Below, piece after piece: positions 13,207-36,930 of a stretch of 56,263 nt of DNA (the first letter of the stretch is position 1; each line of letters starts with the position of its first letter). A program made the position numbers and the translations under genes. The notes below the pieces were generated by a model. That model did not search any database, was not told where the DNA came from, and was given only the letters and a program-made list of their open reading frames with translations. The DNA lies in the IMG/VR virus record IMGVR_UViG_3300032309_001984, positions 1 to 56,263 of that record. One strand, given 5' to 3'. This stretch comes from a virus.

Positions 13207-13236
13207 CAGGCTAGGGTATTTGACTAGCCTGTTTTT
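13207..13236 (+). terminator. Intrinsic terminator
   Basis: Perfect 8-bp stem CAGGCTAG/CTAGCCTG with a 9-nt loop followed by TTTTT. Ends the 5-13 kb plus-strand gene run. Confidence 0.9.
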
Positions 13237-13242
13237 CTATGC

Positions 13243-13306: not shown

Positions 13307-13708
13307 ATGGTAGAAACAATGCTGGGTCTTTTAGATGATCCATTCTTTAATCGATTCAATCAAACAGTAAGATCAACACAAAATAATTATCCTCCATACA
13401 ACCTAGTTAAGGTTGGCAATGATGTATTTGTTTTGGAGTTTGCGCTTGCAGGGTTTGATAAGAGTCAAATATCAGTTACATTAGACAATAATAAACTCAC
13501 AGTTAATGGACAAAGATCTGATATTGAAGAAGATAATTCAGTAACTTACCTTCACAAGGGTATTGCTGCAAGAAAATTCTCAACAACCTTTAATTTGCCA
13601 GAATATATGGAAATTGTTTCGGCAATTTTTAACAATGGAATTTTAGAAGTTAGTCTTGAGAAGCAGATTCCTGAAGATAAAAAGCCAAAAACTATTGAAA
13701 TTCAATAG
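13307..13708 (+). CDS. Small heat-shock protein (Hsp20/alpha-crystallin)
   Basis: 133 aa. Alpha-crystallin domain: YPPYNLVKVGNDVFVLEFALAGF, LTVNGQRSD, the HKGIAARKFSTTFNLP strand and the NGILEVSLEK (GxLxVxL) close; short acidic C-terminal tail. ATP-independent chaperone (IbpA/Hsp17 type), also found in some cyanophages, possibly for structural-protein folding. Own promoter and long leader. Confidence 0.93.
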   Translation: MVETMLGLLDDPFFNRFNQTVRSTQNNYPPYNLVKVGNDVFVLEFALAGFDKSQISVTLDNNKLTVNGQRSDIEEDNSVTYLHKGIAARKFSTTFNLPEYMEIVSAIFNNGILEVSLEKQIPEDKKPKTIEIQ

Positions 13709-13838
13709 TATAATGGATAACATTCCGCTATGAGACTTTAAAAGGTTTTACAACGGATGCTCGATGAAAAGAGAGTCAGCAGGCTGAAACCCGTGGCTGA
13801 TAGACCTGAGCAGTCGTCTATAAACTGCTTTCATTTTT
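13709..13838 (+). ncRNA. Candidate structured small RNA
   Basis: Starts with TATAAT (13709-13714) immediately after the hsp20 stop and has no plausible ORF. Predicted transcript about 13721-13835. Visible pairings: CATTCCG with CGGATG (13721-13727/13754-13759, one bulge), CTC/GAG (13760s-13770s), GTCAGC with GCTGAT (13775-13801), and an end hairpin GAGCAGT/ACTGCTT (about 13808-13833) followed by TTTCATTTTTT, an intrinsic terminator reaching into the end of the convergent gene. Own promoter, multiple stems and a terminator make a compact RNA gene; class not recognised. Confidence 0.5.
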
Positions 13839-14417
13839 TGTAAAAGCAAAAATAGTAATAGCGTATCTTGTTCCATTGTAAATATCCCTAACACCATGAG
13901 TATATTCTTCTGTTCCTGGGTGAATTACAAGGTCTCCACATTTAGGTTTATACTCAATTTCTAGTTTTGGATAGTAAAGTTCTCCACCATCATAGTCATC
14001 GTTTAAATAAAGAACCAATCCATAGTGAGTATTTGTTTCTAAATTTTCTGGGCTATCATCAAAGTGTGTTGGCATTCCTTTATCAGCAGAATAAATTAAA
14101 TTTTCAATTCCAGTTAAATAAAGATTTTCTTCAGATATTGTTTTTAAAATATTATTAATTTTATTAACTATATTATTTTTATTTAATAAATAAATCTTTG
14201 CAATATCTTTTATGTCTTCTTTTTCAGAAATTGTTTCAATATTCTGCTCAGTTGGTAGTTGTATAAGCCTATTATTAAAATATTCAGAAGATATTCCTTT
14301 AGGTTTATGCATTTGCTTTTCTTTTTCAATATAATTAAATATTGATTGAATTTCATCTTTAGATAAAAAATTATTTATAACTATTATTTCGTTATTAAAT
14401 GGTTTATTTATTTCCAT
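13818..14417 (-). CDS. 2-oxoglutarate/Fe(II) oxygenase
   Basis: 199 aa from the internal Met (MEINKPFNNEI), chosen because the upstream paralogue begins the same way (MKIYRPYENEI); a longer start at 14435 is possible. H-F-D in THFDDS, LYLNDDYDGGELYYP, distal THGV and Arg in GTRY. Tandem duplicate of the next gene; convergent with the small RNA. Confidence 0.85.
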   Translation of the reverse strand: MEINKPFNNEIIVINNFLSKDEIQSIFNYIEKEKQMHKPKGISSEYFNNRLIQLPTEQNIETISEKEDIKDIAKIYLLNKNNIVNKINNILKTISEENLYLTGIENLIYSADKGMPTHFDDSPENLETNTHYGLVLYLNDDYDGGELYYPKLEIEYKPKCGDLVIHPGTEEYTHGVRDIYNGTRYAITIFAFTKNESSL

Positions 14418-14419
14418 TT

Positions 14420-14995
14420 TTATCTTGTCCACCAAGAAAGGCTATACCTAGTAGATCTCCTGACTTCATTAACACCATGCTCATATTCTTTATTTCCAGG
14501 GTGCATTACTAGAGACCTTGCAATGGGTTTAATAGATATATTTTTATTAGGATAAAATATTTCTCCACCATCGTAATCATCATTTATGTATACAACAAAA
14601 CCATGAGTAATTATCTTTTCATTTGGATTGTATTGAGGATGCTCTGGATCTATTTCATCTGTGTGGACGCCAAGGCCAGGACCAATTCTGCGGGATAAAG
14701 AGTTAATAGGAAGGTATTCAAAGTCTGATATACCATAGTATTCAGTAAAGATTGATTCAGATCTTTTCTGTATAGAATCAAGCAAATCCCTATAATACCA
14801 ATAAGAACTTTTTAGGTTATCTGGCTCTATTCTTAGTTGGTTTCCATACCACTCTTTAAGCCCATTTCCATCGTTCGATCCTTCCCATAGGCTTGGATCA
14901 TCTTTGCCAAGTTTATTAAATATCTCTACTTCTTCTTCTGATATAAAATCTTCTACAACTACTATTTCATTTTCATAAGGTCTGTATATCTTCAT
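14420..14995 (-). CDS. 2-oxoglutarate/Fe(II) oxygenase, leaderless start
   Basis: 191 aa from the ATG at 14995. H-T-D in GVHTDEID, YINDDYDGGEIFYP, EHGV and Arg in STRY. A TATAAT (minus, 15002-15007) ends exactly 6 nt before this ATG, so the mRNA should be leaderless; this decides the start over the Met at 15010. Divergent from the gene at 15038. Confidence 0.85.
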   Translation of the reverse strand: MKIYRPYENEIVVVEDFISEEEVEIFNKLGKDDPSLWEGSNDGNGLKEWYGNQLRIEPDNLKSSYWYYRDLLDSIQKRSESIFTEYYGISDFEYLPINSLSRRIGPGLGVHTDEIDPEHPQYNPNEKIITHGFVVYINDDYDGGEIFYPNKNISIKPIARSLVMHPGNKEYEHGVNEVRRSTRYSLSWWTR

Positions 14996-15714: not shown

Positions 15715-15750
15715 TATTGGATAGTTTTAAGTCATACCCAGGACTATTAA

Positions 15751-15885: not shown

Positions 15886-17949
15886 TTACTTGCTCTCCTT
15901 AACAAATAGGTCTGCGTTCATAACCTTTGTCCATGCTGAAACAAAATCATGAACAAACTTTTCCTTCGCATCGTCTGATGCATATACTTCAGCAATCGCT
16001 CTTAATTCCGAGTTAGATGGAATGATAAGATCTACACGAGGGACATTGATTGCATTCTCTGGATTTGTAAAAGATAGAAGTCTGACTAAATAAGTATTAC
16101 TTAACTCGTTATACTTTAACATTCTCATTCCAGATAGCAACAAAACCATTTCTACTGGGTTTAGACCTAAAAGGTTTGCCTTCTCTACCAAAAGAACCTC
16201 TGCTGGAGCAGTGATACTTGGATCAATGTAGTTACGGAAAGCATCAAACTTTGGCTCAAGAACTGAAAATGAATCAACATCTGTCTGCTCTTGTGTTGCA
16301 TCTCCACGACTAAACTTAGCATTAATAATTACACCAATACCAGAATTATGTGCAGCAAGTTGGACACCAACGCTACCAGCAAACACGATAAGGTCTGCAA
16401 GTGATACGCCAAACTCTTCCTTTAATGGATTCAACACAGCAACAACTCTGTCGATTGCGTCTTGATCATTTACTTCCCATGAGTATTGTGGCTCAAGAAC
16501 AATTCTTGCACCGTTTGCACCACCACGCTTGTCTGTCTTGCGGAATGTTGATGCAGAGGCCCAAGCAGTTGTTACTAAATCAGAAATTGAAAGACCAGAA
16601 GAACTTATTCTATCTTTAATTACATCAACTTCCTCTTGTGTTAGATCATCCTTTGTAACATTACCAATTGGATCTTGCCAGATTAGTTCTTCAGAAGGAA
16701 CTTCATTGCCAAGGTATCTTGAGATAGGTCCCATGTCACGGTGGGTTAACTTAAACCAAGCACGAGCAAACTGATCTGAGAAGTAGTCAAAGTCTTCAAG
16801 GAATCTGCGTGAGACCTTCTCGTACTCTGGATCAAAGCGTAATGCAAGGTCGGCAGTTGTCATAACTGGAGCATGGAACTTGCCCTCAACATGTGCATCT
16901 GGAACTAAATTAGCAGCAGACTCATCTGTTGGAATCCATTGTGTTGCACCAGCAGGAGACTTTGTTTGTGTCCAATCATACTTAAATAATAACTTAAGGT
17001 ATGAGTTGTCCCACTTAGTAGGAGTTGCAGTCCATGCACCTTCAATACCACTTGTAATTGTGTCTTCTGCATTACCCTTGCCGAATGAATTCTTCCATCC
17101 AAGACCAAGGTCTTCAAGTGGAGCAGCCTCTGGGTTTGGACCAACGTGTGAAGGATCTCCAGCACCATGTGCCTTACCAAATGCGTGTCCACCTGCAATA
17201 AGGGCAACGGTCTCTTCATCATTCATTGCCATGCGAGCAAAAGTTTCACGGATATCTCGTGCAGAAAGAACTGGATCAGGATTTCCGTTAGGTCCTTCAG
17301 GGTTCACATAAATCAAACCCATTTGTACTGCAGCAAGAGGATTTTCTAACTCACGATCTCCGCTATAACGGTTGTCTGCAAGCCATTCTTTTTCTGCACC
17401 CCAGTATGTATCATCAGACTCCCACACATCTGCACGACCACCAGCAAAACCAAATGTCTTAAATCCCATATTCTCAAGAGCAACATTGCCAGCAAGAATC
17501 ATTAGGTCTGCCCATGAAATCTTCTTACCATACTTCTGCTTGATAGGCCAAAGAAGTCTGCGAGCCTTATCTAAGTTACCATTGTCTGGCCAAGAGTTTT
17601 GTGGAGCAAATCTGTGTAGTCCTTCACCTGCACCCCCACGCCCATCAGTTGTTCTATATGTACCTGCAGAGTGCCATGCCATACGAATAAAGAAAGGACC
17701 ATAGTTGCCATAGTCTGCAGGCCACCAATCTTGCGAGGTAGTTAGAAGTGTATTGATGTCATCCTTAAGAGCATCAAGATCTAAACTATTAAACTCTTCA
17801 GCATAATCAAATCCATCTGACATTGGGTCAGACTTTTCTGAATGCTTTCGTAATCCTGACAGATCTAATTGATTAGGCCACCAGTCTTTGTTTGTATTTA
17901 CTTCTGTTATATAGGTTTGTCCAGTGTAGGGACACTTTGCTTCACTCAT
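15886..17949 (-). CDS. katG: Catalase-peroxidase KatG
   Basis: 687 aa from [10 protein letters not shown]. Both KatG halves are present. Active half: [11 protein letters not shown] with the distal Arg/Trp/His, LIYVNPEGP with the crosslink Tyr, [24 protein letters not shown] with the crosslink Met region and the proximal haem His. The C-terminal inactive half extends through the [17 protein letters not shown] region to the end without a break. Removes H2O2 (catalase) and acts as peroxidase in the cytoplasm. An intact katG is highly unusual in a phage; planktonic actinobacteria are often peroxide-sensitive, so it may protect the infected cell. Codon use looks less AT-rich than neighbours, hinting at recent acquisition. 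Confidence 0.97.
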
Positions 17950-18065
17950 GAATTTCTCTTTCTGTTGTTTATGTATTACAAAAATTAGGAGGGTGTGGTG
18001 TTGCAACATAGGCTACATATGTTTCCCGACACATATAGGCTAACCACACCCTTACTACTATTATA
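17950..18065 (-). promoter_or_regulatory. katG promoter and structured 5' leader
   Basis: On the minus strand TGCTATAAT (18060-18068) abuts the 3' end of tRNA-Arg. The leader of about 100 nt contains a perfect 10-bp closing stem AGGGTGTGGT/ACCACACCCT (17990-17999 with 18043-18052), an inner ATATGT/ACATAT hairpin (18017-18036), a repeated TAGCCTAT (18008-18015, 18035-18042), and CCTAATTTTTG just after the stem. It could be an attenuator or riboswitch-like control of katG. Confidence 0.6.
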
Positions 18066-31436: not shown

Positions 31437-31457
31437 CGAGCAGTTTTTATTCTTGCT
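31437..31457 (-). terminator. Conserved GAGCA/TGCTC hairpin, copy 1
   Basis: GAGCA-N11-TGCTC just past the DUF932 gene end, flanked by CCT. Same stem and an A-rich loop recur at 32646, 33838 and 36901. Confidence 0.55.
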
Positions 31458-31472
31458 CAGGAATTTTTTTAT

Positions 31473-32614: not shown

Positions 32615-32645
32615 CGGGGCGGTCCGCATTTTGCAGGGAACAGAG

Positions 32646-32669
32646 GAGCAGTTTTAAAACATGCTCAGG
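32646..32669 (-). terminator. Conserved GAGCA/TGCTC hairpin, copy 2
   Basis: GAGCAGTTTTAAAACATGCTC follows the end of the 32691 gene; loop is also conserved with copies 1 and 4. Confidence 0.55.
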
Positions 32670-32690
32670 TTTATTATTAGTAGCCCCCTA

Positions 32691-33797: not shown

Positions 33798-33832
33798 TGG
33801 GTCTGTTTCCTTTTCTGTTAGTTGGGGGTGGT

Positions 33833-33854
33833 GAGCCTTTTGTATTCATGCTCA
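33833..33854 (-). terminator. Conserved GAGC/GCTC hairpin, copy 3
   Basis: TGAGC-N12-GCTCA between the 33871 and 33797 genes; less similar loop than the other copies. Confidence 0.4.
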
Positions 33855-33870
33855 GGAATTAGTAATTAGA

Positions 33871-36844: not shown

Positions 36845-36900
36845 TACTTAATCCACATCTTATCCACAGACACGCCCGAACGGGGCGGTCCCAAAATTGA

Positions 36901-36924
36901 GCAGTTTTAGATCTTGCTCAGGAT
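36901..36924 (-). terminator. Conserved GAGCA/TGCTC hairpin, copy 4
   Basis: TGAGCA-N11-TGCTCA followed by ATTTTGG on the minus strand, after the 36931 gene end, then GGGGCGGTCC (36884-36893 on the plus strand). Confidence 0.6.
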
Positions 36925-36930
36925 TTCTTT

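Follow-up and report, generated by a model that had tools for sequence, protein, structure and literature searches.

REP elements lie at 3' ends between cistrons, where they are believed to obstruct exonucleases and to determine how much of the upstream message persists. The xrRNAs described from RNA viruses have a ring fold that stops 5'-3' enzymes. The preQ1-I riboswitch is an H-type pseudoknot with an A-rich third loop, similar in size to the phage element that is the subject of this article. Intergenic stem-loops in clostridial operons have been tied to transcript-abundance ratios (PMC4423207), and the pseudoknot in the 5' leader of T2/T4 gene 32 mRNA binds gp32 for autoregulation (PMC3014915). 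There is also an engineered precedent, in that pseudoknots attached to the 3' ends of pegRNAs prevent their degradation (PMC12426525). How phages make and keep the 3' ends of their RNAs in very different hosts is poorly known.

Our entry point was the record of a freshwater phage, 56,263 bases long, the whole of which we refer to as the window and in whose frame all coordinates are given (Table 1). Between an hsp20 gene and a convergent 2OG-Fe(II) oxygenase gene lies a predicted small RNA (sRNA), and the evidence supports region 13706-13831 as a genuine new family of phage sRNAs, with a transcript that would run from about 13721 and whose 3' end would overlap the end of the oxygenase gene by 14 nt. 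The larger finding is the structure with which the RNA closes, a pseudoknot that is a widespread phage element.

Table 1. Coordinates of the sRNA locus, its neighbors and the pseudoknot copies in the window
Feature	Position	Strand	Support or setting
hsp20 gene	13307..13708	+	PF00011 4.5e-19, phrog_432 5e-38
TAGTATAAT, predicted -10 box of the sRNA	13706..13714	+	shared across hsp20 loci and other contexts
Predicted sRNA, type A, ~111 nt	13721..13831	+	40-sequence alignment; model R1
Domain I: P1 TCCG (13724-13727)/CGGA (13754-13757) around variable hairpin P2	13724..13757	+	alignment
Domain II: hairpin P3, CTC/GAG in the window	13760..13773	+	compensatory variation
Domain III: hairpin P4, GTCAGC/GCTGAT	13775..13801	+	type A alignment
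3' H-type pseudoknot of the sRNA	13802..13831	+	pattern scans, covariation
2OG-Fe(II) oxygenase gene, convergent	13818..14435	-	PF13640 1e-9
Pseudoknot, S2 variant TGGGTA/TATCCA	15718..15745	-	5 nt past stop of 44-aa ORF
Pseudoknot between DUF932 gene and tRNA-Asp	31437..31464	-	PF06067 1.8e-47 for the DUF932 gene
Pseudoknot	32645..32672	-	shortly downstream of gene stop
Pseudoknot variant, GGCTCA arm	33832..33859	-	between two genes
Pseudoknot	36898..36925	-	shortly downstream of gene stop

The initial annotation had placed a promoter box at the end of hsp20, and the box is where it was said to be, with TATAAT (13709-13714) directly abutting the TAG stop codon (13706-13708). An hsp20 search of viral contigs gave us 80 relatives to compare. 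AGTAYAAT lies downstream of the hsp20 stop in 77 of them, at the identical base position in 76, and in these 77 the box is followed by a structured RNA that ends in the pseudoknot in nearly all; the remaining three have no box at that place. The first RNA after the box falls into six types: A, the window's own (40 loci), B (25), D (6), C (3), G (2) and F (1). TAGTATAAT also stands ahead of the RNA in ten contexts that are not immediately 3' of hsp20, type A is found behind other genes with the identical box, and L070, L078 and L081 have tandem units. We saw no evident -35 box, and a promoter scan of the site gave a single promoter-like match, which uses another -10. The start of the RNA was placed by counting about 7 nt from the -10 box. 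A hairpin followed by a T run (CAGGCTAG...CTAGCCTGTTTTTCT, 13207-13238, + strand) closes the gene that precedes hsp20. It resembles a standard terminator, and the phage therefore seems to have 3' ends of both kinds.

Three hairpin domains make up the body of the type A RNA. In our alignment (A1: 40 sequences, 129 columns), P1 is invariant; P3 varies in length and in its pairs, with compensation, and has three pairs changed on both sides; P4 is paired in 100% of cells and has two pairs changed on both sides. Covariation across relatives, proposed as a check when the locus was first read, thus turned up compensatory changes in P3, P4 and the stems of the pseudoknot. The complementary segments pointed out at the same time are present but prove nothing by themselves: the fold energy of the window copy is ordinary (z -0.54, with 61 of 200 shuffles folding equally well), and that of one relative has a z of -2.4. 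Because the window copy folds so unremarkably, the case for the sRNA rests on conservation and covariation. Model R1 scores the window at 116.6 bits, a figure to which the window's own row in the model contributes. That this is a noncoding, structured unit was borne out, since the region to about 13831 has structure and no conserved ORF. The flat statement that it holds no ORF was nearly right; a 28-codon frame does open at about 13756, but it is not conserved, and in 22 of 40 relatives its counterpart is only 3 codons long before the stop. At the level of sequence, then, the unit has what an independent sRNA should have: its own promoter box, a conserved structure and no conserved ORF.

The body changes readily while its neighbor stays put. 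Two loci with near-identical hsp20 genes (~97.5%) carry different RNA types, A in L029 and B in L037, and the same exchange in one place separates L003 (type B) from L005-L009 (type A), again with hsp20 ~97.5% identical. Modules have been recombined too, as G plus D plus pseudoknot (L078), D plus F (L021) and G plus a hairpin plus pseudoknot (L133). The body is an exchangeable cassette that comes in several types. Turnover of this kind would be expected of an accessory RNA working in trans more than of a core component, and the probable target of the sRNA body is a host or phage molecule on which it acts in trans. Cassette-like sRNAs would offer a new place to seek phage RNAs that act on hosts or rivals. 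A BLAST search of phage isolates with the sRNA returned nothing meaningful, and the sRNA model came back empty from three other actinobacterial genomes, a result that carries little weight. Type F is a second structured RNA in its own right, with a core (GGACCTTAGTGATGGATTAGTTACC) that matches no Rfam family and whose pattern is matched many times over in viral contigs. Its closing stem varies while staying complementary (CCACACAGG/CCTGTGTGG or CCTCACGCAGG/CCTGCGTGGG), it often has its own -10 box, and it occurs outside the window in L005 after 3535, L003 after 3520, L021 after 2390 and L074 after 3410.

The 3' end of the RNA had been read as a terminator hairpin with a T run, and here we parted company with the initial annotation. 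The 3' end has the form GAC-CTGAGCA-GTC...AAACTGCTC in types A, B, C, D and G alike. In the window, stem 1 pairs AGAC with GTCT (13802-13805 with 13816-13819) and stem 2 pairs TGAGCA (13807-13812) with TGCTTT (13826-13831), extended here by GT/AC. The consensus across copies has a stem 1 of NNNC/GN'N'N', a loop C, a stem 2 of UGAGCA/UGCUCA and a loop with a terminal AAAC. The element is a pseudoknot, not an intrinsic terminator, because stem 1 covaries: it is hypervariable in sequence yet paired, and 128 of 160 distinct copies add at least three pairs to the invariant C-G, against about 19 when the 5' flanks are re-dealt. The T run is missing from most relatives, and a terminator scan of the window listed none at the 3' end of the sRNA.

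Both stems were also scored together in 70 sequences of fixed spacing. Of their cells, 96% are paired, a percentage that is partly built in for stem 2 because the collecting pattern admitted only changes there that preserve purine and pyrimidine; double-changed cells number 125 versus 40 in shuffles. The covariation score is 0.517 versus 0.191 for shuffled sequences and at most 0.126 for slid controls, and three pairs in stem 1 and four in stem 2 have changed on both sides, as an H-type pseudoknot would have it. The cleaner evidence is stem 1 together with a strict scan. A general pseudoknot scan with free sequence was swamped by chance, so the strict motif was used instead; it found 143 copies and none in each of three shuffles, and the motif run backwards gave zero in all control columns. 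Stem 2 occurs in seven versions, each with its matching complement (TGAGCA, TGGGTA, TGAGTA, TAGGCA, TGGACA, TAGACA and TGGGCA).

Five further pseudoknots lie in the window besides that of the sRNA. The 44-aa ORF ahead of the copy at 15718 comes after a large ORF on the - strand (15886-18009, 707 aa) that has no PHROG match and that by eye we take to be a catalase-peroxidase (KatG). KatG is unusual in a phage. Beyond the window, a pattern scan of viral contigs found at least 120 stretches with the pseudoknot, at 1-5 copies per large phage contig, and none with the reversed control pattern. The exact pattern is present in isolate phages of Mycobacterium, Arthrobacter, Lactobacillus and Paracoccus, and copies found by BLAST similarity or as a stem-2 variant add phages of Moorella, Synechococcus, Nostoc and Microcystis as well as phage D6E. 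Mycobacterium phage Labelle, Arthrobacter phage Molivia and Lactobacillus phage phiEF-1.1 are among the cultured carriers. A scan of genomes gave 85 stretches, on contigs assigned to numerous bacterial phyla and to a single methanogen assembly, several adjoining phage head genes and others being CRISPR spacers. Host names are only a guide here, because contigs in metagenome-assembled genomes (MAGs) may be phage contamination. An origin in the host was rejected for the order of one actinobacterial MAG (G016), where the pattern occurs on a single 4.7-kb contig of that MAG and in none of the 295 other genomes among the 296; it looks like a phage element there.

Where the pseudoknot sits bears on what it might do. 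Of 217 copies that are not part of an sRNA, 88 have the first base of stem 1 within 3-11 nt of a preceding stop codon. The genes upstream include those for DUF932 (20), hsp20 (5), ssDNA-binding proteins, minor head proteins, ribonucleotide reductase and ArdA, families so unrelated that the pseudoknot is generic. Twenty of 302 copies are followed by a tRNA that begins 3-14 nt away. Several of these are related DUF932-pseudoknot-tRNA-Asp loci, of which the window has one (the tRNA begins 4 nt past the GCTC arm); cases with tRNA-Arg and tRNA-Gln are separate, as is Arthrobacter phage Molivia, where the pseudoknot lies between an SSB gene and a tRNA. A promoter cannot be fitted in with a tRNA so near, which means that polymerase has to pass the pseudoknot and that the tRNA must be co-transcribed. 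Once RNase P had cut before the tRNA, the message would have the pseudoknot as its final structure. It is chiefly these tRNA-proximal copies that speak for a shield at the 3' end instead of a terminator.

The explanation we favor, and consider probable, is an sRNA with a body of three hairpin domains, made from a -10-only promoter and closed by a pseudoknot that serves phage RNAs generally as a fixer and protector of 3' ends, presumably against exonucleases. Transcription would start at the promoter overlapping the hsp20 stop codon and polymerase would transcribe through the pseudoknot. The RNA would then be cut or trimmed from its 3' side, by RNase P where a tRNA follows and by other nucleases elsewhere, until degradation halted at the compact pseudoknot. 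The sRNA and many upstream mRNAs would thereby retain a fixed, protected 3' end near their last functional base, and the hsp20 message, if it reads through, would share the pseudoknot end of the sRNA. That RNAs end at the pseudoknot, and that exonucleases stop there, is what we infer from this arrangement.

The best of the alternatives, although an unlikely one, is that the pseudoknot is a terminator without a U tract, its folding behind polymerase pulling the RNA out. Copies do come right after stop codons, often before a new promoter region, and the ten or so bases downstream have few Gs and a mild excess of U, so that some termination there is conceivable. Against this, in addition to the copies before tRNAs, the next ATG frame begins within 45 nt of the pseudoknot in 43 of 139 cases, again with scant room for a promoter, and TTTTT occurs within 15 nt downstream of just 17 of 160 copies. 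A classical intrinsic (Rho-independent) terminator does not fit: it would be a G+C-rich hairpin with a conserved U tract, ahead of genes that are convergent or have promoters of their own, and the copies show neither the tract nor that arrangement consistently.

A shade less likely still is that the pseudoknot works in the other direction, shielding the 5' end of the downstream RNA from a 5'-3' exonuclease (RNase J) in the manner of an xrRNA. Some copies directly precede scaffold or ssDNA-binding-protein genes, which counts against our preferred explanation, and protection of the downstream 5' end would suit these equally well. In the head operons of phage D6E (L330), a Lactobacillus phage (L326) and Lactobacillaceae genome loci (L251, L268 and L318) the pseudoknot is found near the junction of portal/minor-head and scaffold/capsid genes, where a shield for the start of the capsid message would be equally sensible. 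The sRNA and the sites with convergent genes, however, have no downstream RNA in need of protection, and where a tRNA follows, what lies downstream ends up as a matured tRNA.

We also think it improbable that the pseudoknot binds a phage or host protein such as SSB, as the T4 gene 32 mRNA pseudoknot binds gp32 (PMC3014915), or acts on terminating ribosomes. In its favor, stem 2, the loop C and AAAC are conserved in sequence far beyond what pairing demands, and copies seldom begin less than about 5 nt past a stop, roughly where the footprint of a terminating ribosome ends. The upstream genes, however, are mutually unrelated, the sRNA copies have no preceding stop codon, the gene 32 pseudoknot sits in a 5' leader, and frames past the stop close fast (median ~10 codons), which disfavors readthrough. 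Just as improbable is that the whole unit is an extended hsp20 3' UTR with no independent sRNA, for although the pseudoknot of L086 directly follows the hsp20 stop with no sRNA body, the unit with its own box sits behind other genes and in tandem elsewhere (L070, L078, L081, L164, L170 and L310).

Returning to the pseudoknot as a protector of 3' ends, a further witness came from bacterial immune memory. In one type III-A array on the Ignavibacteria Ch128a chromosome (~1029053-1038716; L454/L455), 5 of 140 spacers carry the pseudoknot, all in the same orientation and far beyond a rough chance expectation. The array adjoins a type III-A operon with Csm3, Csm4, Csm5, CARF proteins and Cas1; if the cas genes beside it and the repeat end ATTGAGAC give its direction correctly, its crRNAs would be antisense to the pseudoknot RNA. 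Single pseudoknot spacers occur in arrays of Poribacteria (L317, position 930) and Oscillatoriaceae (L280, position 212), the latter apparently in the sense direction. The spacers show that phages of those hosts carry the pseudoknot and hint that it is transcribed. A bolder proposal, which we hold tentatively and rate at a little under even, is that the 29-nt pseudoknot is a shared mark and shield of 3' ends among dsDNA phages across bacterial phyla, set on mRNAs, tRNA precursors and sRNA cassettes and conserved enough to be repeatedly targeted by type III CRISPR. If so, it would give a directly testable rule, would help to annotate where phage transcripts end, and would supply a small natural motif with which RNAs could be stabilized.

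The RNA class had gone unrecognized at the outset, and it stayed so after an Rfam search: neither the sRNA types nor the pseudoknot has a credible match among 4227 models, no gathering-level match occurs in the window or in 11 loci, and no family in Rfam 15 corresponds to the pseudoknot. Plastid-psbA-1, Spd-sr07 and snR58, which surfaced near the site at relaxed thresholds, are chance matches, and hammerhead, hairpin and theta ribozymes were dropped for want of Rfam support. A search confined to an open-access library found no prior description of the pseudoknot, and one may exist elsewhere.

The nearest known RNA in form is GP20-b (RF03003), and the resemblance is one of form only. The arrangement recurs in its 5' half, which can be read as an H-type pseudoknot whose stem 1 is GuC/GgC and whose loop 3 is rich in A. 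Its stem-2 sequence and loop 1 are different, it has a second hairpin and it is filed as cis-regulatory; its score on L131 is 18.3 bits against a threshold of 36.2, and we rejected the assignment. Like the T2/T4 gene 32 structure, ours is a small H-type pseudoknot in phage mRNA. It differs from preQ1-I in having no Rfam preQ1 match and in being sited after genes, not in 5' leaders. With xrRNAs it shares the character of a compact, pseudoknotted 3' UTR element potentially resistant to exonucleases, a property predicted for the phage element, which has a simple H-type fold, belongs to DNA phages and is placed for the 3' end. Its proposed role is shared with the 3' stem-loops of selective RNA processing and stabilization in clostridia, which also lie between genes and are believed to hold off exonucleases and to govern the abundance of the message upstream (PMC4423207). 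Those stabilizing stem-loops, like REP elements, are plain hairpins, whereas the phage element is a pseudoknot, short and with some bases that never change, and the phages that have it span many phyla.
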